In this document: positions 18,604 through 34,214 of the stretch, in pieces
Layout: the number at the start of each line of letters is the position of its first letter
How positions within the stretch are numbered: position 1 is the first letter of the stretch
NCBI RefSeq assembly: GCF_002198715.1
Contig: NZ_MWLK01000006.1
Coordinates: forward strand, 247,294 to 311,293
DNA length: 64,000 bases
Source: Rhodomicrobium sp. R_RK_3
GTDB lineage: Bacteria; Pseudomonadota; Alphaproteobacteria; Rhizobiales; Rhodomicrobiaceae
Direction: 5' to 3'
Program-made: the position numbers and the translations under genes
Notes under the pieces: generated by a model
What the model saw: the letters and a program-made list of their open reading frames with translations, nothing else
What the model was told of the DNA's origin: nothing
Databases searched by the model: none

Positions 18604-19674
18604 TCAGCCAAACCCGCTCACCAAAGATGCGGCCTCCTCTCCCGACACGGGCGCCAGTTTGAAGCCATGTCCCGAGCAGGCTGAGATGACTGTGCCGCGC
18701 GGGCCCATAGAGCGGATGATGAAGTGCTCATTTTCGGTGACCGTGTAATAGCAGGCCTTGCGTTCCAGCACCGTGTAGCTGTCGAAATCGGCAAAGGCCA
18801 GGCGACCGGCCGTGATCAACCGTTCCACATCTGCATCGGTGGCCGTCCGCGAGGCATCCGGATCGCCCTGGCGGGTAAACACATGATCGCCGATCTTCAG
18901 CCGCGTGCCGGGACGAGGCGGCAGCACGTAGCAACTGCTGTGCTCGCCGAGGTCGAGAATGAGCGGCGCCGCCCGCCAGAGCGGGGCGAGCGCGGGTGGC
19001 GGAGCCAGAAACATCACCGCCTGGCGCGATGGCACGAGGATCGGCGCCAATTCCGGCAATAGCCGCGTCACCCAAGCTCCGGCGGCGATCACGATGTGGT
19101 CGGCCGAATGGGATTTGCCATTGGCGACGAGGCGGCCGGCCTCCAGATCGACCGAGGTCACGTCCGTCCCCTGGCGGAAGACGACGCCGCGCGCGGCGAG
19201 GTGGACGACGAGATCGGTCAGGATGCGGATCGGGAACAGGGCGCCGCCGCCGCTGAATTCCAGGGCGCGCGTCAACCCGTCCGCGCGGATCATCGGATAG
19301 GCGCGGGCGATGCCCTCGAGGGGGATTTCGCGCCAAGCGATGTCGATGGTGTCGAGATGGGCGATCGAGGCGCTGACCCAGCCGGTGTCACCCCGCTCGA
19401 GCAGCAGTTGCGGCAGCGGATCGAAATGGCGCGCGCCGATATCGGCGAACATCTCGTCCCACAGGCGGAAAGCCTCGGGCATCCTGTCGGCGTAGAGTTG
19501 CAAGTCGCCATAGTGGCGCCGGATGATGCGGTGCTCGTCATAGGAGCTGGCAACGGGATTGGGAATGGCGCTCTTGTCGAAGACCTCGACCTGATAGCCG
19601 CGGCGGACGAGCGCCCACGCCGTGGCGAGCCCGTTGATGCCGGCGCCCACGATAATCACTTTCGCCTTGTTCAT
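18604..19674 (-). CDS. MSOX/SolA-like FAD-dependent amine oxidase (DAO family)
   Basis: 356 aa. FAD-binding Rossmann motif VGAGINGLATAWALVRRG at the N-terminus; the C-terminal block has KACYYTVTENEHFII and ACSGHGFKLAPVSGE. The Cys in KACYYT matches the covalent flavin attachment Cys of monomeric sarcosine oxidase and N-methyltryptophan oxidase. It should oxidise a secondary amine (N-methyl amino acid) to an imine, releasing formaldehyde and H2O2. It is the last of six overlapping genes; its ATG lies within the stop of the preceding DAO gene (ATGA). Together with the upstream Rieske oxygenase it fits stepwise N-demethylation. Confidence 0.88.
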   Translation of the reverse strand: MNKAKVIIVGAGINGLATAWALVRRGYQVEVFDKSAIPNPVASSYDEHRIIRRHYGDLQLYADRMPEAFRLWDEMFADIGARHFDPLPQLLLERGDTGWVSASIAHLDTIDIAWREIPLEGIARAYPMIRADGLTRALEFSGGGALFPIRILTDLVVHLAARGVVFRQGTDVTSVDLEAGRLVANGKSHSADHIVIAAGAWVTRLLPELAPILVPSRQAVMFLAPPPALAPLWRAAPLILDLGEHSSCYVLPPRPGTRLKIGDHVFTRQGDPDASRTATDADVERLITAGRLAFADFDSYTVLERKACYYTVTENEHFIIRSMGPRGTVISACSGHGFKLAPVSGEEAASLVSGFG

Positions 19675-20858
19675 GTCGCCGTCTCCAAAGGGCGCGCCTT
19701 CCAGCCTTTCTGTGCCGCCCAGTCGGCCGGAATGCCGGCGAAGCGAGCCAGATTGTATTTCGCGATATCGGTGAAGGAGCAGGCGCCGTCGATGACCAGA
19801 TCGCGGATGGCATGCCCAGTTGCCGGAGACAGGCCGAAGCCCACGCTCGACATGATGCATAAGGTCAGGTTGGAGGGCTCCGCGAGGCGTTCGACGATGG
19901 GCCGGCCGTCTGGCGTATTCTCGATGAGCCCGGCCCAGCTTCGGATCACGCGCACATGGCCAGCCTTCGGGAGTAGCTGCCGGAGCCGCCGAGCCAGATG
20001 GCCGAGGAGCGGGGTTGAAGGACGCGAGAGCATTTCGCCATCCTCCGGCAGCTCGATCCATTCATGCGGCCCGCCACCATAGGCGAGATTGCCGCGCAGC
20101 GTCTGCCGTCCGTAGATCCCCTCGCCGTCGACGCCGCCGATCGGCATCAGCGGCACCGGTTCCGTCACGATCATCTCGGCGCGCGCGACGGCGAGCGGAA
20201 CGTCGATGCCGATGGTCGCCATCAACCGTCCGGTTTGCGGTCCGGCCGCCAGGACGAGGTGATCGCAGCCAAGGACCCCGGCAGACGTCTCGATGCCGGT
20301 CACCTTGCCGCCGGCCATCCTTATGGCACGGACGGGCGTGTGCTGAAGGATGCGGCCACCGAGATCCTGGATCGCCCAGGCATAAGCCTGCACCGTGCGC
20401 TGAGGATTGGCGTGACCGCCGACTTTGAGGTGGATGCCGCCAAGGGCGCTGTCACCGGCCAGCGGCACCCGCTCGCGCACGGCGTCGCCGTCGAGGAGGT
20501 CCCACTCATAGCCGAGCCGGCCGATGGTCTCGCCGATCGACTGATAAATCCGGAGGAGCGGCTCCGTCGTCGCGAAGATGATCCGCTCGCGCCGATATTC
20601 GGTCGGATAGCCGAGCAGTTCGTCCATCAGCGGCCAGAGGCGCTGCTCTTCGTGGAAGAGCGCGCTTTGGTAGTGCGTGCAACCGCCGCCATTGCGCCCG
20701 GATGCCTCCCAGCCGACGATGCCCTTGTCGATGACGAGCACGTCGACCCCGGACCGCGCCAGCCACCAGGCGGAGGAAAGGCCGGTGACGCCGCCACCGA
20801 CCACGATGACGGATGCGCCGGGACGGCCCCGGGCGTCGGTGCCGATGCCTGGGTTCAT
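19671..20858 (-). CDS. DAO-family FAD oxidoreductase, opine-oxidase B / sarcosine-oxidase beta-like subunit
   Basis: 395 aa. Rossmann motif VVGGGVTGLSSAWWLARSG, then WEASGRNGGGC, a common flavin-contact segment in the DAO family, and a C-terminal NTPDGRPIVERL/SSVGFGLSPATGHAI flavin-contact region. Size and neighbour (a BFD-type FAD/[2Fe-2S] subunit 14 bp upstream) match heteromeric opine oxidases (OoxA/OoxB), D-hydroxyproline dehydrogenase and HcnBC, in which this subunit holds the amine-oxidising site. Substrate is likely an N-substituted amino acid. The ATG at 20858 begins the conserved fold. The end overlaps the next gene by 4 bp. Confidence 0.86.
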   Translation of the reverse strand: MNPGIGTDARGRPGASVIVVGGGVTGLSSAWWLARSGVDVLVIDKGIVGWEASGRNGGGCTHYQSALFHEEQRLWPLMDELLGYPTEYRRERIIFATTEPLLRIYQSIGETIGRLGYEWDLLDGDAVRERVPLAGDSALGGIHLKVGGHANPQRTVQAYAWAIQDLGGRILQHTPVRAIRMAGGKVTGIETSAGVLGCDHLVLAAGPQTGRLMATIGIDVPLAVARAEMIVTEPVPLMPIGGVDGEGIYGRQTLRGNLAYGGGPHEWIELPEDGEMLSRPSTPLLGHLARRLRQLLPKAGHVRVIRSWAGLIENTPDGRPIVERLAEPSNLTLCIMSSVGFGLSPATGHAIRDLVIDGACSFTDIAKYNLARFAGIPADWAAQKGWKARPLETAT

Positions 20859-20872
20859 TGCGGGGTCTCCGG

Positions 20873-22462
20873 TTACAGATGCGTGTGATCGTCGATGAAG
20901 GTCGCTTCGGCGTCGGTGCCGATCAGGTCGTAGGGGATCCATTGCGACGCGATGCTGAACCAGATCGGCCAGTTGGCGGCCATGGCGTCGGTCTCCTCGA
21001 GCGTTGCGAGCACGGCGAGCGGTAGCGGCCGGACCGGCGCGCGATATCCAGCGACGGGAATGGATTCGGGTGGGACGCCGCCGCCCATCGCCATCAGCAT
21101 CGCCACCTGCTCACGGCAGCGCCGTGCCTGGCATGGGCCCATCGAGACACGCGTCAGGCGCTTCATCTGGTCGTGGTTGAGGGGCCCGTCGGCGGCCAGC
21201 GTCGCGAGATCCCGGTGGACGGACCTGTCCGAGGGACTGGCGAGATAACGCGGCGCGCGAACGCCAAGGAGATCGGCGCGGGTGACGTCCTCGCACTGAC
21301 AGGCGAGCACGTTCAGGCCGCCCGTGGACAACAGCGCTTCCATCACCCGCCGCTGATAGGCGAGTTGGTCGGCGTTTCGTGGGGGCGGCGAAGTGTCAAG
21401 CGGATCGGCCCGGCCGAGCGATGCCAGCACCGCACGCGCCGCGCGCCGTCCATGCGCTTCCGTCTCGGATCGCGTGGCCAGGGCGGCGGAGACGGCCATG
21501 CAATCCCCGGCGCCGAAGACGAGAGGCGAGCCGGTCGAAACACCGTCAGTGCTGCCTGCCACGAAGCCACCGCGATCGGTGTCCAGTGCGAGCGGGACGC
21601 CGGCCGTGTCGAAAAGCTCGATCACCGGCACAAGTCCGATGGCAAGGCAAACGGTGTCGCACGCAATCGTGCGCGCCGGGCCGCCATCGAGGGACGCGAT
21701 CTCAACGCCGGTGACGCCGGTCGGACCGCGACCAGCCGACTTGATGACCTGTCCACAAAGCACGGGAACGCCGCGCTCCGCCAAGGCCGACACGCGCTGC
21801 GCGGGTCCCCGCGGGGTTGCGTCCACCTCGATCAGGGCGGCAATTTCGAGACCGCGCGCGAAGGCCAGTTCGGCGGTCGCCAGCGCCAGCTCGTCCGAGC
21901 CAAAAATAACGAGCCTGCGCCCGTCGAAGGCATCATAGCGCGCGGCGAGCGCGTGGAATGCCGCCGCGCCCATCACGCCGGGCTGATCGGCGCCGTCGAA
22001 ATAGACCACGAGATCGCGCGCGCCGATCGCCACCACGATGCGCCGAAAGCCGACGGTCCAGGCGCGGGCATCGTCCGTCAGCCCGGCGACCGCGCCGGGC
22101 AGTTCGCGCGTGGCAGGCCCGGGCAAGAACACGCCCCAGCAGGACGTCCCGAGCAGGATTTCGACGCCCGCCGCCAATGCGCCTTCCAGAGCCGGCTCGG
22201 AGGCAACGACCTGCTCCAGCATGCGGCCTTTGTTCTGCACCGCCGCTCCGGCTCTCCCGCCGAAATAATGCGGAACATCCATGCCGATCAGAGCGGCATC
22301 AACCGGATTTTCGTCGACCAGCATAACCGAGAGGCCCGCTTCGGCCAGTTCCGTCGCAGCCGCGACCCCAGCCGCGCCGGCGCCGACGACGAGAACGTCG
22401 ACCGTCGCTTCGGGGGCGGCCAGTTTGCCTGCGATGGAGTGGGCATCGATCACGGACATCAT
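20873..22462 (-). CDS. FAD/NAD(P)-binding oxidoreductase with BFD-like [2Fe-2S] domain (opine oxidase A-like)
   Basis: 529 aa. The N-terminal pyridine-nucleotide-disulfide-reductase fold has VVGAGAAGVAAATELAEAG, an ATP/NAD-type segment around VIFGSDELALATAELA, and the second FAD motif VFGAGDCMAVSAALATRSE. A BFD-like [2Fe-2S] site follows: Cys388 and Cys390 (CQCEDVTRADLL) and Cys444/Cys449 (GPCQARRC). This is the electron-transfer subunit of heteromeric amine/opine dehydrogenases. The last ~80 residues are a family-typical tail. The first ATG overlaps the PLP-lyase stop (ATGA). It could also feed electrons to the ferredoxin/Rieske pair, as no separate reductase gene is present. Confidence 0.86.
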   Translation of the reverse strand: MMSVIDAHSIAGKLAAPEATVDVLVVGAGAAGVAAATELAEAGLSVMLVDENPVDAALIGMDVPHYFGGRAGAAVQNKGRMLEQVVASEPALEGALAAGVEILLGTSCWGVFLPGPATRELPGAVAGLTDDARAWTVGFRRIVVAIGARDLVVYFDGADQPGVMGAAAFHALAARYDAFDGRRLVIFGSDELALATAELAFARGLEIAALIEVDATPRGPAQRVSALAERGVPVLCGQVIKSAGRGPTGVTGVEIASLDGGPARTIACDTVCLAIGLVPVIELFDTAGVPLALDTDRGGFVAGSTDGVSTGSPLVFGAGDCMAVSAALATRSETEAHGRRAARAVLASLGRADPLDTSPPPRNADQLAYQRRVMEALLSTGGLNVLACQCEDVTRADLLGVRAPRYLASPSDRSVHRDLATLAADGPLNHDQMKRLTRVSMGPCQARRCREQVAMLMAMGGGVPPESIPVAGYRAPVRPLPLAVLATLEETDAMAANWPIWFSIASQWIPYDLIGTDAEATFIDDHTHL

Positions 22463-23736
22463 ACGCGCTCCAGGGCCTGGAGGAGATCGGCGGCGAGATC
22501 CTCGGCATGCTCGATACCGACCGAAATCCGCAAAGTCGCGTCGTCGATCCCGACCGCCTCGCGCCGCTCGCGCGGGACGGCGTAATGGGTCGTCGAGGCC
22601 GGGTGGCAGATTAGCGTCTCGGTCCCGCCGAGACTGACCGCAAGACGCAGCACCTTGAGGGCGTCCAGCAAACGGAAAGCCGCCGCCTCGTCGCCGCGGA
22701 TGCGGAAGGAGAAGGTCGAACCCGCCCCGCGGCACTGGCGCGCGAAGACAGCTCCGGCGGGCGCCTCCGGCGGCGTGAAACCTAGATAGGTGACGGAGGA
22801 CACTTTTGGATGCTCGCGGAGCAAGCCCGCGATCCTGGCGGCATTCTCGGCGGCGCGCGCGGTGCGAAGATGCATCGTCTCGAAGGAGCGCGCCAGCAGC
22901 CATGCCGAATGGGCGTCGAGCGTCGAGCCGAATAATGTGCGCAGCATTTTCAGCCGTCCGGTCAGCGCCTTCGGGCCGCTGACGCCTCCAGCAAGAAAGT
23001 CGCTATGACCGCCGGCATATTTGGTCAGCGAGGTCATGCAGAGATCGGCACCGAGCGCCAGCGGGCTCTGCACGAAGGGGCCGAGGAAGGTGTTGTCGAC
23101 GCAGACGAGCGGCCGGCGGCCCTGAGCGGCCCCTATCTCCCCGGCGCTGGCTGCGACGAGCGCTATATCGACGATGGCGGCGGTGGGATTGGCCGGCGTC
23201 TCCACCCAGATCACGCCGACGCTGCCCTCGGCCATCGCGCGTTCGGCATCGGCGGCGAGCGTCTCCCGGTCGAGGCCGCTGCGCAGGCCGACAGGCTTGA
23301 TGCCGAGCCGCGTCAGCTCGCCATTCAGCAGCGCGTCGGTGCCGCCATAGATCGGGCCGGTATGCGCAAGCACGTCGCCCGGCGCGAGAAAGGCGAGCAT
23401 GATCGAAGTAATCGCCGCCATGCCGCTGGCGAAGCAGGCCGCATCCTCCCCGCCATCTAGCGCGGCAAGCCGGGCTTCGACGATATCCAGGCCGGGATGA
23501 CCGAGGCGGCCATAAATGTGCCCGGTGGCGCCATTCTCCGCGCCATCGAAAAACGCCTCGTGCAGGCGCTTCGCTTCGGCGGCGGAACCGTAGACGAAGG
23601 TCGAGGAGAGATAGACCGGGGGCTTCGCAGCACCGCTCGCGGCCTTCGGGTCGTAGCCATGCCCGACCGTCAGCGTCTCGGGATGCAAACCGGGGGCATC
23701 CGAGTCCATGTTGCTCACCCGCGCGCCTTCGCTCAT
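22459..23736 (-). CDS. Cys/Met-metabolism PLP-dependent lyase (cystathionine gamma-synthase/lyase fold)
   Basis: 425 aa. PLP lysine is K239 in SLTKYAGGHSD, with D214 (CVDNTF) against the pyridine nitrogen, Y75/R77 (YGRLGHP) reaching the neighbouring subunit, Y130 stacking on PLP (PIYGGT), and a C-terminal GGTETLICHPASTTH/RISVGIE substrate block. At the position of the catalytic Cys of methionine gamma-lyase there is Gly (YGGT). So it is closer to cystathionine gamma-lyase/synthase than to a true methionine gamma-lyase. It would do beta- or gamma-elimination or replacement on an amino acid. Being inside a demethylase operon, with 4-bp overlaps on both sides, it probably acts on the demethylated product. 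Confidence 0.88.
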   Translation of the reverse strand: MSEGARVSNMDSDAPGLHPETLTVGHGYDPKAASGAAKPPVYLSSTFVYGSAAEAKRLHEAFFDGAENGATGHIYGRLGHPGLDIVEARLAALDGGEDAACFASGMAAITSIMLAFLAPGDVLAHTGPIYGGTDALLNGELTRLGIKPVGLRSGLDRETLAADAERAMAEGSVGVIWVETPANPTAAIVDIALVAASAGEIGAAQGRRPLVCVDNTFLGPFVQSPLALGADLCMTSLTKYAGGHSDFLAGGVSGPKALTGRLKMLRTLFGSTLDAHSAWLLARSFETMHLRTARAAENAARIAGLLREHPKVSSVTYLGFTPPEAPAGAVFARQCRGAGSTFSFRIRGDEAAAFRLLDALKVLRLAVSLGGTETLICHPASTTHYAVPRERREAVGIDDATLRISVGIEHAEDLAADLLQALERV

Positions 23737-24047
23737 GCCCACTCCAAAACCAGCGGCGTCAGCGGATAGGAGCAGCAGGCGAGGATATCGCCATCCTCCA
23801 CCTCGTCCTCGAACAGGCCGCCATTCTGATGCATCTCGACCTCGCCGGAGAGCTTGTGCAGCCTGCAAGTGCCGCATACGCCCTGGCGGCACGAGCTTGC
23901 GAGCGCGACGCCGCAGCGCAGGCCAGCTTCGAGGATGGTCTCGCCCGGGCGCACGAAAACCTCCACATCATAGGGAAGGATGCGCACGGATATCCCGGCT
24001 TCCGTATGAGCGGCTGCGCTCTGCTGTAACATCACCTCTCCCGTCAT
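23733..24047 (-). CDS. plant-type [2Fe-2S] ferredoxin
   Basis: 104 aa. Cluster ligands are Cys53, Cys58 and Cys61 (SCRQGVCGTC) plus Cys91 or Cys92 (ACCSYP), the standard Cx4Cx2C...C pattern. The segment VFVRPGETILEAGLRCGV is the usual start of the fold. It is most likely the electron donor of the Rieske oxygenase; in glycine-betaine and carnitine systems such a domain is normally fused to a flavin reductase, which is absent here. It overlaps both neighbours by 4 bp (24044-24047 and 23733-23736). Confidence 0.9.
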   Translation of the reverse strand: MTGEVMLQQSAAAHTEAGISVRILPYDVEVFVRPGETILEAGLRCGVALASSCRQGVCGTCRLHKLSGEVEMHQNGGLFEDEVEDGDILACCSYPLTPLVLEWA

Positions 24048-25273
24048 GCGACCTCGGCGATCCTGGCCGAGGGCGCACCGATATGGGCGCGCATCCGCTC
24101 GCAATACCAGTCGATGAAGCGCAGCACGAGGCCCTCCGCTTTCGGTGAATAGGGGCCAGGCAGATAGCCAAGGCCGTTGACTCCCCGCTGGTTGTTCTCG
24201 GCCAGGTCGCGATCCTGGCGATTGGTCATGTCCCACGTGTTGATCAAGCTGGGCACGTCGTAATCCACGCCTTCGACGGCGTCCTCATGAACGAGCCACT
24301 TGGCCACGACATGCGTCTCCTCCGGCCCGACCGGCAAGACCGAGAACATGAAGGCATAATCGCCAAGCGCATGGCAGAAATTATGCGGCTCGATCGAAAA
24401 ACGCAGCGAACCGGTGTCGCCGCCGTCGAGGTCGAGCATCGGCTTCTTCACCAGCGGCGCGCCGTCGGGCGACATCGAGATCATCCCCTCATTGAGGGGG
24501 AAGCGGGCAATCTGCCACCATGAACCGTCGGTCGGTCCCACCTCAAGGCCGTGCGCCGCCATGCGCTGACAATAGCCCCGCATCCGCGTATCGTCCTCAA
24601 TGCTCATATTCGCCGAAATCCCGATCGGAAAGCTGATGCCGAGTTCGGGATGATTGGCGGCACAATGGTAGCACTCGCGGCCATTCTCCATGACCAGCTT
24701 CCAGTTCGCCTTTTCAACCAGCACATATTGGTGGGCGAGCTTGGCGTTCTCGAAGCCATGCGGCGCGAGCATCGGCTCCAGGGCGCGGCGGAAAGGTGCA
24801 AAGTCAGGCGGTGTCTGAGCTAGGCAGATATAGATCGCGCCCGCGACCACTTCGACGTGAATGGGCCGCAAGGGATGGTCGTTCGCGTCGAAATTCTCGG
24901 GCATCGCGCCGGCATGCAAGAGGCGTCCGTCGAGGCCGTAGGTCCATTGGTGGTACGGACAAACCAGCTTGGCGGCGCGCCCGGTGCCGTCCTGGCAGAT
25001 CTGCGCGCCGCGATGCCGGCAGCTATTGAAGAAACCACGGATGGCGCCGGCGCGGTCACGGATCACGACGACGGGCGTGCGGCCGATCGTCATGGCCAGA
25101 TAATTGCCCGGCTTAGGCAGTTCCACCGAGAAACCGATCATCAGCCAGCAGGCATTGAAGACGCCCTCGATATCGAGCGCGTAGATGTCTGGATCATTGT
25201 AGAATGGCTGCGGCAGCGAATATCCGGGGCGCCGCTCGTCGAGAAGGTCGCAAAGTTCGTGCCTGCGGCGCAT
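24044..25273 (-). CDS. Rieske non-heme iron oxygenase alpha subunit, quaternary-ammonium (betaine demethylase) type
   Basis: 409 aa. Rieske [2Fe-2S] ligands are C85, H87, C105 and H108 (SCRHRGAQIC, CPYHQWTYG). The catalytic iron site has H203 and H208 in ENGRECYHCAANHPEL. The residue two before CYH is Glu200, where aromatic dioxygenases have Asp; a bridging Glu is the hallmark described for carnitine oxygenase CntA and relatives. I infer oxidative N-demethylation or C-N cleavage of a quaternary or N-methyl substrate. The ATG at 25273 has ACGGAGG 7 nt upstream. It is the first gene of a six-gene overlapping operon, divergent from a LysR regulator. Confidence 0.92.
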   Translation of the reverse strand: MRRRHELCDLLDERRPGYSLPQPFYNDPDIYALDIEGVFNACWLMIGFSVELPKPGNYLAMTIGRTPVVVIRDRAGAIRGFFNSCRHRGAQICQDGTGRAAKLVCPYHQWTYGLDGRLLHAGAMPENFDANDHPLRPIHVEVVAGAIYICLAQTPPDFAPFRRALEPMLAPHGFENAKLAHQYVLVEKANWKLVMENGRECYHCAANHPELGISFPIGISANMSIEDDTRMRGYCQRMAAHGLEVGPTDGSWWQIARFPLNEGMISMSPDGAPLVKKPMLDLDGGDTGSLRFSIEPHNFCHALGDYAFMFSVLPVGPEETHVVAKWLVHEDAVEGVDYDVPSLINTWDMTNRQDRDLAENNQRGVNGLGYLPGPYSPKAEGLVLRFIDWYCERMRAHIGAPSARIAEVA

Positions 25274-25478: not shown

Positions 25479-26447
25479 GTGATTGATCGGAAATGGCTCC
25501 CCCTCAATGCGCTCCGTGCATTCGAGGCTGTCGGCCGGCGTCTCAGCTTTACCGTCGGCGCGCAAAGCCTGAGCGTTACGCAGAGCGCCATAAGCCGGCA
25601 TGTCGGCAGTCTGGAAGACCTCCTCGGCAAACGTCTCTTCCACCGCAATCCCAATGGCCTGGTTCTGACGCATGCAGGCGCGAAGTTGCTGCCCGTCGTC
25701 GAGAAATCCTTCAGCCAGATCGAAAAAATCCTCAACGAGATCCAAAACGACGGCGCGGCTTACGAGCGGGTCTTGAGGGTGCACATGCCACCGACCTTCC
25801 TGCAGCGTTTCGGTCTGCAGATGCTGCACGAATTCCGCAGTGAGTTTCCCGGGATTGCTCTCGACGTCTCCAGCAGCTACGGCACCTGGCTGCCCACCAA
25901 GAAGGTCGATGTCGCGGTGCTCTACGACAAGCCGAAGGTCAGCGACGCGATCCTCGATCTGCTTTGGATGGAGCGGGCGACGCCCGTCTGTTCGCCGGAG
26001 CTTGCCGCCCGCTTCGCCGACCGGCCGCTGGCAGATCTGCTTGGCGCGACGGAGCTGCTGCATGTCCGTATCGAGGGACAGCCGGCCAACCACCTTTGGT
26101 CCCGTTTCGCGCAGCAGGTTAATGTCGAGCTCGATACCAGCCGCGGCATGACCTTCGACACACTGGCGCTCGCCGTTCAATATGCCCAGCGCGGCGATGG
26201 CATCGTCTTGTGCGATATCGACATGTTCATCGACGATATGCAAGAGGGGCGCCTCGGCGTGCCGAGCACGATCGAGATCAAGGATGGTTTTGGCTATTTC
26301 CTCTCGCTCCGGCCCGAGGATCTCGACGATCCGCTGATCTCGCTATTCCGGAACTGGATCATTACGCGGTTCGCCGGCATCGACCGCCGGCCCTGGCCGA
26401 TCGCGCGGCAGGCGGCGACGCCGGACGACATGGCCGAGCTTGAATAG
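25479..26447 (+). CDS. LysR family transcriptional regulator (GcvA-like)
   Basis: 322 aa. The N-terminal winged HTH (about 8-65) reads LNALRAFEAVGRRLSFTVGAQSLSVTQSAISRHVGSLEDLLGKRLFHR, very close to GcvA-type LysR proteins. The rest is a periplasmic-binding-protein-like effector domain. The start is a GTG at 25479 with GAGGCGAG just upstream. It is divergent from the Rieske operon and convergent with the ABC importer, so it is the obvious candidate activator of the catabolic genes, with a pathway amino acid or betaine as effector. Confidence 0.92.
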   Translation: MIDRKWLPLNALRAFEAVGRRLSFTVGAQSLSVTQSAISRHVGSLEDLLGKRLFHRNPNGLVLTHAGAKLLPVVEKSFSQIEKILNEIQNDGAAYERVLRVHMPPTFLQRFGLQMLHEFRSEFPGIALDVSSSYGTWLPTKKVDVAVLYDKPKVSDAILDLLWMERATPVCSPELAARFADRPLADLLGATELLHVRIEGQPANHLWSRFAQQVNVELDTSRGMTFDTLALAVQYAQRGDGIVLCDIDMFIDDMQEGRLGVPSTIEIKDGFGYFLSLRPEDLDDPLISLFRNWIITRFAGIDRRPWPIARQAATPDDMAELE

Positions 26448-26465: not shown

Positions 26466-28517
26466 CTATTGCGGCTGCGGCCCAACGGTCTTCGCGGTCT
26501 GCAGCTCCGCCAGTTCGGCTGCCGGAATGTGGCAGCGGATCGCGTGGCCGGCCTGGTTGCGGGCGAGTGGCGGCTCCGCCTGTTCGCAGACGGGGCCGAT
26601 TTTGCGCGGACAGCGCGTATGAAAGACGCAGCCACTCGGTGGATTGACGGCGCTCGGGATTTCCCCCTGGAGGCGGATGCGCGCCATGCCAGGCCCGTCG
26701 AGGGTCGGCACCGCGGAAAGCAATGCTTCCGTATAGGGATGATGCGGCCCGGAAAACACCTGCTCGGCGGGACCTGTCTCCATAACGCGGCCGAGATAGA
26801 GCACGACGATCTTGTCGGACAGGTAGCGGACCACGCCCAGGTCGTGCGAGATGAAGATGTAGCTTACATGATGGCGGGCCTGGAGGTCGACGAGCAGGTT
26901 GAGGATCGCCGACTGCACGGACACGTCGAGCGCCGAGGTCGGCTCGTCGCAAACGACGATACGAGGATCGCCCGCAAAAGCCCGCGCGATCGCCACGCGC
27001 TGCTTGAGGCCGCCCGAGAGCTGTCGCGGCTTTGCCTGCAGGTGTCTTTCGGACAGCCGCACCGATTGCATGAGCGACAGCAGCCGCTGCTTCAGAGGCG
27101 CGCCGCTCAGTCCGGCGAGACGCCGCAGGGCGCGGCCGATGATGCGGCTGACCGGATGCGAGCGGTTGAGCGCCGAGTCAGGGTTCTGGAAAACGATCTG
27201 CATCGCCTTCACCTGCTGCCACGACCGGCGCTCCAGGCTTGGCTCGACGAGGTTTCCCTCCAGCATGATCCGTCCGCCCGGATCCGGCTCGATGACACCG
27301 AGGAGCATCCTCGCCAGGGTGGTTTTGCCGCTGCCGGATTCGCCCACCAGCCCGAGCGTCTCGCCGGGCAGCAGGCTGAGCGACACATCCGTCACCGCGT
27401 GTAAAGCATGGCTGCCGCTGCCGAAGGTCATGTTGAGGTTGTCCACCTTGAGCACCGGCGCGTCGTATTTCGCCGCGGCCGGACTTGCCGCTTCGGCAGG
27501 CAGCGTCCGTGGCAGGGTCAGCGCGCGGTCATGATAGTGGCAGCGTGACAGGCGCCCGCCCAGGTCGAACAGCGGCGGCAATTTCGTGCGGCAGAGGTCG
27601 TCCGCCAGGGCGCAGCGATCCGCGAACGCGCAGCCGGAGATCGTCGCGCCTGGAGCGGGAAGATTGCCCGGAATCGTGTCGAGCCGCCCCAGATCCTTTC
27701 GCTGACCGCCGCGCGGCAGGCAGCGCAGCAGCGCCACCGTGTACGGGTGGCGCGGGTTGTCGAACAGGTCTTTCGTCGGCCCTTCCTCGACCAGCATCCC
27801 GGCATAGAGCACACCCACCCGGTCGCACATGCGCGACACCACCGCGAGATTGTGGCTGATGAACAGTAAGGACGTCTGGAATTCCTGGCGAAGCTGGACG
27901 ATGAGGTCGAGCACTTCGGCCTCGACCGTGGCGTCGAGCCCGGTGGTCGGCTCATCGAGTATCAGCATGGTGGGATCGCTGGCGAGCGCCATGGCGATCC
28001 CGACCCGCTGCTGCATGCCTCCGGAAAGCTGATGCGGGTAGCGCTGCATGACGCGGACCGGATCGGATATGCGCACGCGCTTCAGCGTATCGATGGCGCG
28101 GTCCTTAGATGGGCCGGCGGCGAGACCGGCCAGCTCGAAGATCTCGGTGATCTGCCGGCCGATTCTCATCGACGGATTGAGCGCCTTGCCCGGATCCTGA
28201 TAGACCATCGAGATCGTCTTTGCCCGCATCCGGCGCAGGGAAACACTGTCGAGCGCGATCACGTCGGCGCCATCGACCAGGACATGCCCGCCGGTCACGC
28301 TGCCATTGCGCGGCAGATAGCGGACGGCCGTCAGGGCGACCGTCGACTTGCCGCAACCGGACTCTCCCACCAGCCCATAGGCTTCGCCCTTACCGATGCG
28401 CAGACTGAGGTCGCGCAGCACCGTCCTGTCGCGCCCCTGCGTCCGGTAGGCCACGGACAGCCCTGCAATCGTCAGCGCATCGCGGCCGATCTGCGCTACC
28501 TCGGGCTGGTCAAGCAT
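26466..28517 (-). CDS. fused dipeptide/opine-type ABC transporter ATPase (DppD-DppF fusion)
   Basis: 683 aa containing two complete ABC ATPases. The first has GLVGESGCGKST, LSGGMQQRVGIAMAL and LILDEPTTGLD; the second has GLVGESGSGKTT, LSGGLKQRVAIARAF and VVCDEPTSALD. Each is followed by the oligopeptide-type C-terminal domain with its conserved Cys (GCAFADRCALADDLC and GCVFHTRCPRKIGPVC). It powers uptake through the two permeases encoded upstream, whose gene it overlaps by 8 bp. Fused DppDF proteins are common in rhizobial peptide, opine and betaine importers. Confidence 0.93.
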   Translation of the reverse strand: MLDQPEVAQIGRDALTIAGLSVAYRTQGRDRTVLRDLSLRIGKGEAYGLVGESGCGKSTVALTAVRYLPRNGSVTGGHVLVDGADVIALDSVSLRRMRAKTISMVYQDPGKALNPSMRIGRQITEIFELAGLAAGPSKDRAIDTLKRVRISDPVRVMQRYPHQLSGGMQQRVGIAMALASDPTMLILDEPTTGLDATVEAEVLDLIVQLRQEFQTSLLFISHNLAVVSRMCDRVGVLYAGMLVEEGPTKDLFDNPRHPYTVALLRCLPRGGQRKDLGRLDTIPGNLPAPGATISGCAFADRCALADDLCRTKLPPLFDLGGRLSRCHYHDRALTLPRTLPAEAASPAAAKYDAPVLKVDNLNMTFGSGSHALHAVTDVSLSLLPGETLGLVGESGSGKTTLARMLLGVIEPDPGGRIMLEGNLVEPSLERRSWQQVKAMQIVFQNPDSALNRSHPVSRIIGRALRRLAGLSGAPLKQRLLSLMQSVRLSERHLQAKPRQLSGGLKQRVAIARAFAGDPRIVVCDEPTSALDVSVQSAILNLLVDLQARHHVSYIFISHDLGVVRYLSDKIVVLYLGRVMETGPAEQVFSGPHHPYTEALLSAVPTLDGPGMARIRLQGEIPSAVNPPSGCVFHTRCPRKIGPVCEQAEPPLARNQAGHAIRCHIPAAELAELQTAKTVGPQPQ

Positions 28518-29391
28518 CGAGCGCCCCCTGTACGCCGTCAGCGACGAGGTTCACTCCGATCACCAGCGTTGCGATCGCCAGCGCATCGAACAAAACGGTC
28601 CACCAATAGCCACCGCCGATCATGCCGTAATTGCTGGAGATGCTCAGTCCCCAGTCGGGCGATGGCGGTTGAATGCCGAAACCCACAAAGCTCAAGGTGG
28701 CAACGACGAATATGGCATAGCCGAGCCTGACGCTCGCCTCGACGAGGATCGAGGGGACGACATTCGGCAGGATCTCGACGAACAGAATGTAGAGCGTGTT
28801 TTCCCGGCGCAGTTTCGCCGCCGAGACGTAGTCCAGTTCGCGTTCCGCGATGACTGCGGAGCGCACGGTCCGGGCGATCAGCGGCGAGAAGCTGAGGCCG
28901 ATTACGCAGATCACTGTCGTGGTCGATGGCCCGAGCGCAACGACGACCAGCAGCGCGATGATGACCACGGGAACGGCCATGAAGGCTTCGAAGATGCGGC
29001 TGATGACCTCGTCCACGATGCCGCGAAAATAACCGGTCACCAGCCCAAGAGCCGTTCCCGCGACCGTGGCCAGAAGCGTCGCCAGCGGCGCGACCATCAA
29101 GATATCGCGTGAGCCGACGATGACGCGGGAGAAGACGTCGCGGCCGATCTGATCGGTGCCGAACCAGTGTTCGGCGGATGGCGGCTTCAGCGAATTGATG
29201 ATGTCGTCGGCAAGCGGATCGTAGGGCACGAAATGCCGGCCGAACAGAGCGCATACGACCCAAAATGCCACGATGCCGAACCCGATGACGAAAGACCCGG
29301 AACGGCCGAGCAGGGCGAGCGTTTGCGCCAGCCCGCCCCGCCGCTTCTCCTCATCGCCCGGAAGGCTGATGTCCGCCGGTTCCACACTCAT
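28510..29391 (-). CDS. ABC transporter permease, DppC/OppC type
   Basis: 293 aa. About six membrane helices with the OppC-type N-terminal domain (HFVPYDPLADDIINSLKPPS, then HWFGTDQIGRDVFSRVIVG). The ATPase-coupling EAA-type loop is near SAAKLRRENTLYILFVEILPNV. It pairs with the DppB-type permease whose stop codon overlaps its ATG (ATGA, 29388-29391). It is part of the complete importer running from 32078 down to 26466. Confidence 0.92.
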   Translation of the reverse strand: MSVEPADISLPGDEEKRRGGLAQTLALLGRSGSFVIGFGIVAFWVVCALFGRHFVPYDPLADDIINSLKPPSAEHWFGTDQIGRDVFSRVIVGSRDILMVAPLATLLATVAGTALGLVTGYFRGIVDEVISRIFEAFMAVPVVIIALLVVVALGPSTTTVICVIGLSFSPLIARTVRSAVIAERELDYVSAAKLRRENTLYILFVEILPNVVPSILVEASVRLGYAIFVVATLSFVGFGIQPPSPDWGLSISSNYGMIGGGYWWTVLFDALAIATLVIGVNLVADGVQGALDA

Positions 29392-30350
29392 CGTCCGCCT
29401 CCCAGCCTGATGCGCGGGTTGAGGACGGAATAAAGCAGGTCGGCGAGGAGTGTTGCGATCGACAGCACGATGCCGATCGTCAATATGCCGGCCTCGAGGA
29501 TTGGGAAATCCTTGCCGCGCGCGGCGGTGAAGATCAGCGACCCGATCCCCTGGTAGCGAAACAGCGTCTCGACGACGACGACGCCGCCCACCAGGTACGT
29601 GGTCTGCGAAGCGATCACGGTGATGGTCGGCAGAAGCGCGTTGCGCAGAGCATGCCGCCAGATCACCGTCCGCCACGGCAGCCCCTTCAGCACCGCCGTG
29701 CGGACATAATCGCTGTCGAGCGCCTCGATCATGCCGGACCGTGCCATACGGGCAATATAGCCGAACAGCACCAGAAACAGCGGCAGAGCTGGAAGGATGA
29801 GGTAATAGATCTGCGTGGTGAGGCCCGCGCCGGGCGGCCAGGCGGCGGAAATCGGAAGCCATTGCAGCCAGACGCCGAAAACGAGGATGAGAACGATACC
29901 GGTGACGAATTCAGGCAGCACGGTCGCCGAGAGCCCGCCGAGGCTGATGATGCGGTCCAGCGGCCGATTGACGTTCAAGGCCGCTACGACGCCAGCGGCT
30001 ATGCCGAGCGGCACGACAAGCACCAGGGCGACGGCGGCGAGCTTCAGCGTATGGCCCAGCGCCTCGAAGACGAAGGGTGCGACGGGCGCGCGGAAGATGT
30101 AGGACGTGCCCATATCGCCTTGGACGAAATTGCTGATCCAGTCCCAGTACTGCACGAGGATAGGCCGGTCGAGGCCGAGCTGCGTGTTGAGCAACTCGAC
30201 CGCACGCATGTCGGCCAGCGGTCCGAGGATGGCCCGCCCAACATTGCCCGGCAGCACCTGACCGGCGATGAACACCATCACGCTGAGCAGGAACAGGGTC
30301 ACGAGCGATAGCGAAACACGCTGGACGAGGAAGCTGAGGATGGCTCGCAC
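29388..30350 (-). CDS. ABC transporter permease, DppB/OppB type
   Basis: 320 aa. An N-terminal helix (VSLSLVTLFLLSVMVFIAGQVLPG) is typical of OppB proteins, and the permease core includes PILVQYWDWISNFVQGDMGTS and the coupling loop region RTAVLKGLPWRTVIWRHALRNALLPTITV. The start is a GTG at 30350. The gene lies 63 bp after the binding-protein gene and is translationally coupled to the DppC gene. Confidence 0.92.
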   Translation of the reverse strand: MRAILSFLVQRVSLSLVTLFLLSVMVFIAGQVLPGNVGRAILGPLADMRAVELLNTQLGLDRPILVQYWDWISNFVQGDMGTSYIFRAPVAPFVFEALGHTLKLAAVALVLVVPLGIAAGVVAALNVNRPLDRIISLGGLSATVLPEFVTGIVLILVFGVWLQWLPISAAWPPGAGLTTQIYYLILPALPLFLVLFGYIARMARSGMIEALDSDYVRTAVLKGLPWRTVIWRHALRNALLPTITVIASQTTYLVGGVVVVETLFRYQGIGSLIFTAARGKDFPILEAGILTIGIVLSIATLLADLLYSVLNPRIRLGGGR

Positions 30351-30413: not shown

Positions 30414-32078
30414 TCAGGCCTTCGACGCCTTATCGAGATAGAGTTGGGACATCGCGGTCGGCTGAACGCCGGTCACGCCTTTCGCTGCCGCAGTCAGGAA
30501 GTCGAAGAAATAGCCGAAGATGACCGGCGTCTCATCCAGAAGCAGGCGCTGAATCTTGCCGGCGGACTGTTTCTGGCTTTCGAGGTCAAGTGCCGCGATG
30601 TAGCTTTTGGCCAGTCCGTCATAGCTGGCGTTCTTGAAATGCGAGGCGTTCCAGCTTCCCTCGCTCATCAAGGGGGCGGACAGATAGACGTTGGGCACGC
30701 CGCGATGGCCGTAATCGGTAATGCCCATCATCGAATCGAGCCAGTTGGACTTGCCGAAAACGGCGTCGCCATAATAGGTGCTCTGGTCGAGAATACTGAG
30801 CTCGAGCTCGATGCCGATCTCCTTCACCGCATTCTGGATCAGCACGGCATATTCGGGGATTTCGAGATATCGCTCGGTGGTCAGCTTTGCCTTGGCGCCC
30901 TTGCCGAGGCCCGCCGCCTCCATGAGCTGCTTGGCCTCGGCGATGTTCCGCTCGCGCTGCGCCACAGTCTTGTCCGCGGACGGATAGGCAGCGGCGAACG
31001 GGCTGTCATTGCCCACGACCGCGCGGCCTTTCATCAGCCCCTTGGCGAGCTTGTTGCGGTCGAGGCTGAGAGCCACGGCGCGGCGCACGCGGGCATCTGT
31101 GAACGGGTCCATGTCGCAGCGCATATGCACCTGCTGATGCGCCACGGACTTGAGGCTCATGATCTCGATATTGGGATCATTGAGCAGGGCCACGCCGGCG
31201 AGCGCCGGAAGCTGGTTGATGATGTCGATCTGCCGCCCCTGCAGCGCAAGAATCTGCGGCTGGAGGTCGGCGAAGAAGGTGAATTCGGTGCGCGCGGGCA
31301 GGGCCTTCTCTCCCCAATAGTCTTCGTTGCGCACGAAGCTCGCGCCGACTTTCGGCGTATATTTTTCCAGTTTGAACGGTCCGGTGCCGTTGAACGTCTT
31401 CTCGAAATCGCCGGCATAGGCCGCCGGGATGATGATGGCGTTGTAGTTGTCTGACGATACGAGGTAGGGGAAGTTGCCGCTCGGGCTGTCGAGGTGGAAC
31501 GCCACCGTGTAGTCGTCGACCTTCCTCGCCCCGCCCTTTTGCAATGTGCCCTTGAAGACGGATAAGGCGTTCGAGGAGTTCGCGGGATCGGCCAGCCGGT
31601 CGATGCTGGCGACGACGTCGTCGGCCTTCATCTCGCCACCGCCATGGAATTTCACGCCTTTCCGAAGCTTGAAAGTCCAAACTGTCCCATCGGCATTCGG
31701 GTTCCAGCTTTCCGCCAGCATCGGCCGCAGAACCAGATCGGGGCCGTCGAGGCAGAGAAATTCGCCCACCTGCTGCAGCATCAACAATCCGCCCGCATCC
31801 GCGACCGTGACCGGATCGATCGCGGCGGAGGGGATGCTGTTCCCGATGCGGATGGTCGCGCCTGCCGCACCGGCGGCGTAGGCGAGGCCCGGCATGACGC
31901 CGAACCCGGTCGCGGCGGCGACGCGTCCGAGCAGCGGCAGCGATAATCCAAGCAGACTGCCATGGCGGAGGAATTCGCGGCGGCTGATCCTCCCGTCGAC
32001 GACACCGTCGATCAGATGGTTTTCGATCTCCGTGCGGCCACGCCGGATTGCGTCGATGGTCCGATAGTCCTTACGCAT
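30414..32078 (-). CDS. ABC transporter substrate-binding protein, family 5 (peptide/opine type), Tat-exported
   Basis: 554 aa. A long n-region followed by SRREFLRHG and a hydrophobic stretch is a twin-arginine signal; cleavage is probably after LAYAAGA. The mature part is an SBP_bac_5 fold (LAESWNPNADGTVWTFKLRKGVKFHGG, then TGPFKLEKYTP and FTDARVRRAVALSLDR). It captures the substrate for the DppB/C/DF importer. The ATG at 32078 has GAAGAGG upstream. Tat export suggests folding in the cytoplasm before secretion. Its 212-bp upstream gap carries repeated TTGGAC-type motifs. Confidence 0.92.
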   Translation of the reverse strand: MRKDYRTIDAIRRGRTEIENHLIDGVVDGRISRREFLRHGSLLGLSLPLLGRVAAATGFGVMPGLAYAAGAAGATIRIGNSIPSAAIDPVTVADAGGLLMLQQVGEFLCLDGPDLVLRPMLAESWNPNADGTVWTFKLRKGVKFHGGGEMKADDVVASIDRLADPANSSNALSVFKGTLQKGGARKVDDYTVAFHLDSPSGNFPYLVSSDNYNAIIIPAAYAGDFEKTFNGTGPFKLEKYTPKVGASFVRNEDYWGEKALPARTEFTFFADLQPQILALQGRQIDIINQLPALAGVALLNDPNIEIMSLKSVAHQQVHMRCDMDPFTDARVRRAVALSLDRNKLAKGLMKGRAVVGNDSPFAAAYPSADKTVAQRERNIAEAKQLMEAAGLGKGAKAKLTTERYLEIPEYAVLIQNAVKEIGIELELSILDQSTYYGDAVFGKSNWLDSMMGITDYGHRGVPNVYLSAPLMSEGSWNASHFKNASYDGLAKSYIAALDLESQKQSAGKIQRLLLDETPVIFGYFFDFLTAAAKGVTGVQPTAMSQLYLDKASKA

Positions 32079-32290: not shown

Positions 32291-33121
32291 TTAAATGAGG
32301 GGCGGCTCGTTATTGAAAAGAATAGGCCGCGAAGGCGTGAAAAGACGCGCCAGGCGCGGCGCGGTGATGAAAGGCAGGCCTTGGCGGCGCGACGTCCATC
32401 CGACGACGGCGAGCGTTTGTGCAGATGGCTCGAATCGCCGGGCCAGGTGCCAGGATCTGGCATCGATGGCGGCGACATCGGCGGCACCACCGGCGACGGC
32501 GCGGATCGAGGTCCGGTGCGAGCCGGTTTCCAAGGTCCCGGCAAAGAGCGAGAGACTGTTTCCCGCGCGCTCCACGTCCCGTTTCAATCCGATGTAGCCC
32601 GACATTGAATCCGGTCCATTGAAAGCGAAGCGGGCGCCGCGCCACGACCCGAGCGGGACCATTGCGCGTCCATCCTCGGGCGAGCGGCAATCGGCGCGCG
32701 CCCGGGCATCGCTCCGCCGCATCACGATGGCGCTCGAATAGAGCGATCCCTCGCCGCCCTCGATGCCGCTATAGTCCGGGAGGCCGATCACCGCGACATG
32801 CGGTTGCAGGCCGAGTTCCATCGGGCCCCAGCAGGTCTGTCCGAACAGCAGCGCCGGATGCCGCCACAAGGTGTGCAGATGAAGGTCATCGGCGGGCAGC
32901 GCCGCGGGATCCGAAGCGATCACAGCTCCCAGGGCGTCGCGGATACCGTCCGGTACCGCCGGCATATCGCCATTACGGCGCGTCAAATGCTCGGGAGCGT
33001 CGACGCCGCAGGCCCTCAGCCGGTCACGGATCGCCGCCCACTCGGCGTCGACCTCGCCGCACCGCTCGGGCCAGTCATACATTGGAAGTGAAGCGATATA
33101 CCGCATGGCGGCGGGTGCCAT
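32291..33121 (-). CDS. PhnD/SsuA/transferrin-like substrate-binding protein without signal peptide
   Basis: 276 aa. It starts directly with MRYIASLPMYDWPE-type sequence and has no signal peptide or lipobox, so it appears cytoplasmic. Features recalling PhnD-like binding domains are ADDLHLHTLWRHPALLFGQTCWGPM near residue 80, GPDSMSGYIGLKRDVE, and the end SAQTLAVVGWTSRRQGLPFITA. The ATG at 33121 has GGAG 8 nt upstream. It follows the desaturase gene by 34 bp. A signal-less member may be a cytosolic ligand sensor or chaperone rather than a transporter part. Confidence 0.75.
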   Translation of the reverse strand: MAPAAMRYIASLPMYDWPERCGEVDAEWAAIRDRLRACGVDAPEHLTRRNGDMPAVPDGIRDALGAVIASDPAALPADDLHLHTLWRHPALLFGQTCWGPMELGLQPHVAVIGLPDYSGIEGGEGSLYSSAIVMRRSDARARADCRSPEDGRAMVPLGSWRGARFAFNGPDSMSGYIGLKRDVERAGNSLSLFAGTLETGSHRTSIRAVAGGAADVAAIDARSWHLARRFEPSAQTLAVVGWTSRRQGLPFITAPRLARLFTPSRPILFNNEPPLI

Positions 33122-33155: not shown

Positions 33156-34214
33156 TCAGCAACCCGAATGTGCCGCCGCGCGAGGCCGCTCCGAAGTCCT
33201 GCCCTCTCCGGGCGCCTTGGCAGGATCGGTATTTCCCAGTTCGACTGTAATGGCATGACCAGGTTTCGACGAGGGCACGGCACGGCGCAGAACCGGATGC
33301 ACGACAGGTTCCTTCGGCCGCAAAGCGAATGCCCGGAATATCTCGAAATAATTGCGGAACACGTAGCCTTCGTTCATCGCCCGCCACGCCTCGCTCTCTT
33401 CGGCATAGAGGGCCTTAAGCTTGTACCAAGGTGCGGTCGGTCGCTTGTGATGCACGAGATGCAGATTATTGTTGAGAAACAGCAGGGCCAGCCACGATTT
33501 CTCCACGATGACGGTTCGCCCCTCCGGCCGCTCCGACCACTGATGCTCGCAATAGGACCGGATGCAGATGATCGACATCCCGCCATAGGCCGAACTCACC
33601 GCATACAGCCAGAACGAGATGCCGAACGCACCTTCCAGAAGACCCGCGAGAACAGCGAGACCTGCGGCATGCAGCATCCATGCCTTCCGGATGCTTGGAC
33701 TGGAACCGAATTGCCCGACCTCGGTGACGAGGAACCCCGGCACAGCCAGGGCCGGGCCCAGGGTGACCCGGCCGACCAGCGTATTGTTCCAGCGGAGCAG
33801 CATCTTCAGCGCGCGAGGAAGCTTCTCCCAGTCATATTGTGCCCGGTAGTAGCATTCCGGATCGTCATAAGGATCCGTCAGCCGCTCGTCGGCATGATGC
33901 CGGAGGTGCACGGCCCTGTAGCGCCGATAGGGGTAGAAGACGCCAAGCGGCAGCCCGACCAGCCATTCATTGAGGTGGCGGTTGCGGGTCGGATGGCCAT
34001 GCAAAACCTCATGCTGCAAGGACGAATGCAGCGCGATCACCACCGCCAATACCGCCAGGGCGGCCGCCGGCATGAGCGGATAAAGATAAGACGCCGTCGC
34101 GAACCAAAGCCCGTAGCAAACGAGCAGCAAGCCGACCGTCGGCCATTCGACCGCACCGAGGCTCACGCGCCGAATTGGTGAATTCGGTCGTCCAATCTTT
34201 CGGCGTTTCCCCAA
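33156..34214 (-). CDS. membrane fatty-acid-desaturase/hydroxylase family di-iron protein
   Basis: 352 aa. The three histidine boxes of integral-membrane di-iron desaturases are present: HSSLQHEVLHGH, AVHLRHHAD and NNLHLVHHK. Hydrophobic pairs lie at about 25-60 and 165-205. The substrate need not be a fatty acid: the family includes carotenoid and small-molecule hydroxylases. The apparent start is TTG at 34214; a GTG at 34166 (SLGAVEWPTVG) is an alternative. Co-transcribed with the PhnD-like gene, divergent from an XRE regulator, and next to the betaine/opine importer, so a role in the same pathway is possible. Confidence 0.82.
   Translation of the reverse strand: MGKRRKIGRPNSPIRRVSLGAVEWPTVGLLLVCYGLWFATASYLYPLMPAAALAVLAVVIALHSSLQHEVLHGHPTRNRHLNEWLVGLPLGVFYPYRRYRAVHLRHHADERLTDPYDDPECYYRAQYDWEKLPRALKMLLRWNNTLVGRVTLGPALAVPGFLVTEVGQFGSSPSIRKAWMLHAAGLAVLAGLLEGAFGISFWLYAVSSAYGGMSIICIRSYCEHQWSERPEGRTVIVEKSWLALLFLNNNLHLVHHKRPTAPWYKLKALYAEESEAWRAMNEGYVFRNYFEIFRAFALRPKEPVVHPVLRRAVPSSKPGHAITVELGNTDPAKAPGEGRTSERPRAAAHSGC

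Follow-up and report, generated by a model that had tools for sequence, protein, structure and literature searches.

Organisation of the operon

The stretch analysed here, called the window throughout, comprises 64,000 nt of contig NZ_MWLK01000006.1 of Rhodomicrobium sp. R_RK_3, and all coordinates are positions in it. Its minus strand carries, between positions 18604 and 25273, a run of six genes encoding, in this order, a Rieske oxygenase subunit, a ferredoxin, a pyridoxal 5'-phosphate (PLP)-dependent enzyme, a flavin adenine dinucleotide (FAD) subunit with a BFD-like motif, a DAO-family subunit and an oxidase resembling monomeric sarcosine oxidase (MSOX) (Table 1). Four of the five junctions are 4-bp ATGA overlaps, and the FAD subunit and DAO genes are separated by a 14-bp gap. 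This gene set and these junctions had been described in the original prediction for this DNA, and the coordinates bear them out; likewise, the families it assigned to the six genes agree with Pfam and NCBIfam. A 470-aa open frame on the plus strand (21173-22585), antisense to the FAD subunit gene, probably just reflects codon use at high G+C.

Table 1. The operon and its surroundings in the window (ABC, ATP-binding cassette; HTH, helix-turn-helix)
Feature	Position	Strand	Details
MSOX-like FAD oxidase	18604-19674	-	356 aa; similarity to TIGR01377/NF008425 below cut-off
DAO-family FAD subunit, beta partner	19671-20858	-	395 aa; PF01266
FAD subunit with BFD-like 4-Cys motif, alpha partner of heteromeric amine oxidase/dehydrogenase	20873-22462	-	529 aa; Pfam/NCBIfam
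PLP-dependent Cys/Met-family enzyme, predicted lyase	22459-23736	-	425 aa; PF01053
Stand-alone [2Fe-2S] ferredoxin	23733-24047	-	104 aa; matches C-terminal domain of GbcB-type reductases (NF058606)
Rieske oxygenase alpha subunit	24044-25273	-	409 aa; GGAGG upstream; Pfam Rieske and Ring_hydroxyl_A
LysR-type regulator, GcvA-like, divergent from operon	25479-26447	+	Pfam
Opp/Dpp-type ABC transporter ATPase, two fused ATPase domains	26466-28517	-	Pfam
Opp-type permease C	28510-29391	-	start inferred
Opp-type permease B	29388-30350	-	
SBP_bac_5 solute-binding protein	30414-32078	-	Pfam; start inferred
PhnD-like protein	32291-33121	-	no signal peptide by eye
Membrane fatty-acid-desaturase-like protein	33156-34163	-	
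HTH regulator	34356-35207	+	

Conservation of the core gene set

Loci were picked by similarity of the PLP enzyme alone, so that their linkage to the other genes was unselected. At a lyase identity of at least 55%, the collection comprises 59 loci, namely the window, 51 of the 52 loci designated L036-L087, L117-L122 and L154; as the genome scan kept the best 80 of 145 confirmed loci, the cluster occurs in at least 59 places, closely related loci all being counted. L084 (49% lyase identity, no Rieske gene) and L088-L115 (35-39%) were excluded, as were two duplicates, L155 of L049 (both on one contig) and L116 of L040. Neighbouring genes were named by per-protein identity thresholds of 35-55%, which we set ourselves, and their family names derive from the scan of one representative each or from record annotation (PurU, L127).

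A Rieske gene accompanies the lyase in 58 of the 59 loci, the exception being a contig that starts inside the lyase gene. The FAD subunit was found in 58 loci and the DAO subunit in 55, every absence falling at a contig end. These loci come from Hyphomicrobiales, Sphingomonadales, Acetobacteraceae and Caulobacteraceae. Since the core set (Rieske, PLP enzyme, FAD and DAO) is kept across 59 loci of several alphaproteobacterial groups, it represents more than chance, and a fortuitous cluster of open reading frames was discarded on this ground. The original prediction had raised the co-occurrence of all six families: the core is indeed conserved, the lyase, whose loss from the cluster elsewhere would have counted against that prediction, is kept, and the ferredoxin has to be left out, no ferredoxin or reductase gene being detected in 54 of the 59 stretches.

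Among 397 sampled genomes of the order, eight (the host of the window included) carry a PLP enzyme of at least 56% identity, and the Rieske, FAD and DAO genes accompany it in all eight. Lyase homologues of 48-51% occur in 35 further genomes; these were rejected as orthologues, as the 22 fetched loci (of 35 genomes), taken with some 1.5 kb of flanking DNA (less in one case), gave no Rieske, ferredoxin, FAD, DAO or MSOX match. Finally, when the distance matrices of the four core proteins are compared in pairs over 54 loci, they correlate with r values of 0.91-0.945, reached by none of 500 permutations; this correlation is uncorrected for species relatedness and includes L155 beside L049.

The oxidative enzymes are predicted demethylases

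The best Protein Data Bank matches of the Rieske subunit are 3vca and 4qup (372 bits), the latter recorded as a monooxygenase/demethylase. Specifically, the Rieske ligands C85/H87/C105/H108 and the iron histidines H203/H208 are retained in 57 of 57 aligned orthologues; D354, a possible third iron ligand, is invariant as well. The window protein scored 451.6 bits against the GbcA model NF058607, below the cut-off of 670, as did a Paracoccus Rieske protein (528.5 bits) and a second Rieske protein of the same genome (435.2 bits). Because these two also fail, the cut-off is doubtful for alphaproteobacterial enzymes, to which it may be ill-suited, and we did not use it as a discriminator. From its sequence, the Rieske subunit is predicted to be the first demethylase, converting a quaternary into a tertiary amine.

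The ferredoxin, the least conserved part of the set, aligns to positions 268-361 of the 362 of NF058606. GbcB-type reductases are single proteins that combine FAD, NAD and Fer2 domains, and all three are found in L036; the window has Fer2 only, so to speak a GbcB-type reductase shrunk to its last domain. A full-length reductase occupies the place of the ferredoxin in L036, L118 and L119; L117 shows a ferredoxin match. As neither gene was detected in most stretches, the Rieske enzyme would as a rule receive its electrons from another source.

On the FAD subunit, Cys388, Cys390 and Cys449 of the BFD-like motif are conserved in 55 of 55 orthologues and Cys444 in 54, and the A and B chains of 1y56 are among the structure matches of the FAD/DAO pair. 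The DAO subunit is about 60% identical to proteins on Paracoccus and Ancylobacter plasmids which adjoin Rieske and glycine-betaine-transporter genes, and these are the closest plasmid relatives found outside the lyase clusters. Matches on Agrobacterium plasmids reach about 26-28% and are annotated merely as FAD-dependent or FAD-binding oxidoreductases, not as opine oxidases. The pair resembles opine oxidases in architecture; the label of opine-type dehydrogenase formerly given to it is otherwise unsupported, its near relatives standing in betaine contexts. The pair is predicted to demethylate a tertiary to a secondary amine.

In the 55 DAO-bearing loci, the gene after DAO is of the MSOX type in 10 (window included) and SoxB in 38, and in three (L038, L044 and L154) the stretch has its Sox genes at another place. 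The representative SoxB is above its NCBIfam cut-off; SoxA is below (1003 of 1164 bits), with a folate-binding domain, and the protein labelled SoxG has no Pfam match. The MSOX-like protein of the window aligns with structures 7exs, 1zov and 1el5 over nearly its full length, scoring 129 of the 480 bits needed for TIGR01377. The Arg pair, Lys265, Cys315 (which binds the flavin) and Lys348 of MSOX are matched in its RIIRRHYG, LKIGDH, ACYYT and GHGFK segments. The use of two different oxidases in one place suggests that N-methyl removal from a secondary amine is the job of this position, and the MSOX-like oxidase is accordingly a predicted secondary amine demethylase yielding a primary amine. The oxidation of a secondary amine, already proposed in the original prediction, would be just one of three demethylations.

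The lyase forms a clade of its own

In a FastTree phylogeny of 94 sequences, the 58 cluster-linked lyases make up one clade (support 0.945), next to a sister clade of 29 relatives (support 0.989) at about 48-53% identity. Eleven positions, each at least 90% conserved within either clade, tell the two apart. Residues K239, Y75, R77, Y130, D214, T238, S368 and R403 are found in 58 of 58 cluster-linked lyases and S236 in 57; by alignment with methionine gamma-lyase, they presumably serve PLP binding, K239 being the Schiff-base lysine. The methionine gamma-lyase model TIGR01328 is the second-best NCBIfam model for the window lyase, which scores 331.5 bits against a cut-off of 549.7. One member of the sister clade adjoins a methionine ABC transporter and some are annotated as methionine gamma-lyase; by annotation and this one neighbourhood, the stand-alone sister clade is probably methionine-gamma-lyase-like.

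To act, a PLP enzyme needs a primary amine with which to form an aldimine. Since it cannot act on a quaternary or tertiary amine, the lyase would come last, and one would expect the substrate to be an alpha-amino acid that is trimethylated and bears a leaving group on its gamma or beta carbon.

One-carbon, transport and other neighbouring genes

Genes for formaldehyde, formate or folate one-carbon (C1) metabolism, i.e. class III formaldehyde dehydrogenase FrmA (representative above its NCBIfam cut-off), formate dehydrogenase and PurU, occur in 18 of the 59 stretches, and all three kinds together in six (L059, L061, L063, L064, L070 and L072). In these six sphingomonad stretches, PurU, FrmA, formate dehydrogenase alpha with its smaller partners, and FdhD lie directly upstream of the LysR gene of the cluster; FdsG and FdsB are named by position beside the alpha subunit, the scans giving [2Fe-2S] thioredoxin-like and NuoF-type families. 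A relative of the LysR regulator is present in 42 of the 59 stretches.

A ProXWV-type betaine transporter (ProV/W/X), which is what a quaternary amine substrate would lead one to expect, was found in six of the 59 stretches, with families checked on representatives; a ProV/ProW-like pair below thresholds in L047 is outside this count. The Opp ATPase occurs in four stretches and a major facilitator superfamily gene in 19. Orthologues of the fused Opp ATPase (61-62% identity) adjoin the cluster in L120, L121 and L122, and those of the SBP_bac_5 protein (about 60%) are found in L121 and L122. Predicted ester hydrolases are PETase/PAF-acetylhydrolase-like in 16 of the 59 stretches and CocE-like in two.

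Members of the PhnD-like, desaturase and HTH trio recur beside the operon in L040, L050 and L120-L122. Desaturase relatives also adjoin other uptake operons on Rhizobium, Sinorhizobium, Agrobacterium, Pantoea, Klebsiella and Terrarubrum plasmids, and in view of such relatives by other operons (eight regions viewed) we rejected the idea that the trio belongs specifically to the pathway.

Proposed pathway and candidate substrate

All together, these data make it likely that the operon serves the catabolism of an N,N,N-trimethyl alpha-amino acid (an amino-acid betaine) with an eliminable side chain; every reaction, the reaction order and the substrate are what we infer. The betaine would be imported by an ABC transporter of the Opp or ProXWV type. 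The Rieske enzyme, with electrons from the ferredoxin and a reductase acting in trans, would oxidise one N-methyl group, releasing formaldehyde and leaving the N,N-dimethyl amino acid. The second methyl would be taken off by the FAD/BFD and DAO heteromer, and the third by the MSOX-like oxidase (by SoxBDAG in most sphingomonads). The free primary amine could then form an aldimine with the PLP lyase, which would eliminate the gamma (or beta) substituent as the leaving group, with a 2-oxo acid and ammonia as the other products. Stepwise demethylation is supported by the nearest Rieske structures, the MSOX/SoxB exchange and the C1 genes. The order first put forward for this locus, with betaine-type demethylation followed by amine oxidation and the PLP lyase, is supported too, the lyase being conserved in the cluster at 59 loci.

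As to the substrate, our preferred candidate, tentatively held, is an O-substituted homoserine betaine such as glyceryl-N,N,N-trimethylhomoserine, the head group of the lipid diacylglyceryl-N,N,N-trimethylhomoserine (DGTS), which fits because it is a betaine whose gamma carbon carries an ether. A study on Chlamydomonas describes its release from lyso-DGTS by an alpha/beta hydrolase (PMC11711679). It is conceivable, if far from assured, that imported deacylated DGTS is demethylated three times to O-glyceryl-homoserine, from which the PLP enzyme, as a gamma-lyase, would yield glycerol, ammonia and 2-oxobutyrate (or homoserine). If so, cleavage of an ether bond by a Cys/Met-type PLP lyase would be the key step of betaine-lipid turnover. 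The ester hydrolases near the cluster lend weak support to this head group, and canavanine gamma-lyase offers a precedent for a PLP gamma-lyase working on an analogue of this kind.

Several observations weigh against these proposals. BtaA (PF11899), the protein of DGTS synthesis, is not enriched, being found in 3 of 10 cluster genomes and 37 of 121 genomes of the order sample, two overlapping samples; for want of an association, recycling of the cell's own DGTS was dropped. Four DAO-bearing loci show no sarcosine-oxidase gene (L039, with less than 3 kb left, L041, L043 and L119), and a ferredoxin or reductase gene is seldom seen. The 18 stretches with C1 genes are just 17 from sphingomonads and L154, a count which shared synteny inflates, as the loci were not thinned. 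Neither the ProXWV nor the Opp transporter is universal, the transporter varying by lineage, and the distance correlation carries the limits given above. In addition, the FAD/DAO pair is not confined to this pathway, as five of the 397 genomes of the order have it without the PLP enzyme (six places); the six 19.9-kb stretches around these pairs gave no Rieske match.

The genome of the window itself encodes a BtaA-like protein (PF11899) on its contig C22 (35987-37114); judged from this sequence, the host may itself make betaine lipids.

Alternative explanations

Methionine betaine is a possible substrate and the main alternative to the DGTS head group. An unlikely version of the pathway holds that the substrate is this or another thioether amino-acid betaine and that the lyase is a methionine gamma-lyase freeing methanethiol. 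The methionine gamma-lyase annotations and the methionine transporter of the sister clade, together with the rank of TIGR01328, speak for it. The separate clade of the cluster-linked lyases, with its 11 distinguishing positions, argues against it, as does the inspection by eye of the recurrent neighbours, among which no sulfur-assimilation or methanethiol gene was seen, a tetratricopeptide-repeat sulfotransferase in 11 stretches aside; moreover, a dedicated lyase would seem unneeded for free methionine. Sulfur-containing candidates, as put forward at the outset, have the family name of the PLP enzyme as their basis, and we prefer an amino-acid betaine with another leaving group.

Still less probable is an ordinary glycine-betaine (or proline-betaine) demethylation operon, to which an unrelated PLP enzyme would be linked by chance or for sulfur supply. 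Its oxidative parts do resemble the known glycine betaine route, and sister clusters free of the PLP enzyme exist: on the Paracoccus and Ancylobacter plasmids, the FAD/DAO pair is accompanied by a Rieske gene, a glycine-betaine-type transporter and a carbon-nitrogen hydrolase, with MmgE/PrpD in two of the three clusters viewed. Against this stand the place of the PLP gene between the ferredoxin and FAD subunit genes, both of which it overlaps by ATGA, and the lyase clade itself, never seen without the cluster save at contig ends. Furthermore, in the same genome the second Rieske gene (L153), accompanied by a reductase, GlxA-type regulators and ProX/ProV genes, is a better glycine betaine candidate than that of the operon, its score falling short of the GbcA cut-off.

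Some of the PLP-free FAD/DAO clusters (L127, L128, L129 and L147-L152) carry MmgE/PrpD, a carbon-nitrogen hydrolase or a GlxA-type regulator. These clusters probably serve another betaine. The PLP-free relatives suggest a demethylation module that receives different tail enzymes in different lineages; the lyase defines the version present here.

Lastly, we give very little credence to an opine pathway, in which, once the Rieske enzyme has removed a methyl group, the FAD/DAO pair would split a secondary-amine opine into a keto acid and an amino acid for the lyase to degrade. It is supported by the architecture of heteromeric amino-acid dehydrogenases (1y56 A/B), which opine oxidases share, and by the Opp-type transporter of the window. 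Against it speak the betaine-type clusters around the closest plasmid DAO relatives outside the lyase clusters, as well as the MSOX/SoxB exchange and nearby formaldehyde and formate genes, which indicate N-methyl groups.

Significance and comparison with known systems

Among the matches listed in the open-licence literature, outside which many journals lie, we found no description of this gene set. Serial demethylation of betaines is already known; as far as that literature shows, what is new is a conserved form of it whose last enzyme is a side-chain lyase. It points to a pool of amino-acid betaines used by a range of Alphaproteobacteria. How much the operon matters will be decided by the identity of the substrate: if this is the DGTS head group, the pathway would account for the recycling of carbon and nitrogen from the membrane lipids without phosphorus that algae, fungi and bacteria contain.

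Glycine betaine catabolism proceeds through GbcAB, dimethylglycine demethylation and SoxBDAG, and ends at glycine, with no PLP lyase known to take part. The proposed pathway is similar in that a Rieske enzyme comes first, flavin enzymes remove methyls two and three, and the C1 units pass to formaldehyde or tetrahydrofolate; it differs by the added lyase and by entrusting the second step to an FAD/BFD and DAO heteromer. The closest solved structures of the Rieske subunit, 3vca and 4qup, are of the stachydrine demethylase type (Stc2); its operon is different, and its end product would be proline, not a substrate for the lyase. Heteromeric opine and L-proline dehydrogenases likewise combine FAD/BFD-type and DAO subunits, whereas the DAO subunit of the operon is distant from the Agrobacterium plasmid proteins and has a betaine-type context.

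With the methionine gamma-lyase/PRK07049 family, the window lyase shares the family, the PLP residues and a sister clade. Unlike those enzymes, the cluster-linked lyases form a separate clade tied to demethylases, and against the PRK07049 cut-off of 504 bits three of them score 489-517 and two stand-alone relatives 762-815. Canavanine is an O-substituted homoserine analogue. By description alone, the proposed last step resembles that of canavanine gamma-lyase, a PLP-dependent enzyme which, in the available portion of its account, converts canavanine into homoserine and hydroxyguanidine, with no demethylases appearing in that portion (PMC10018355).

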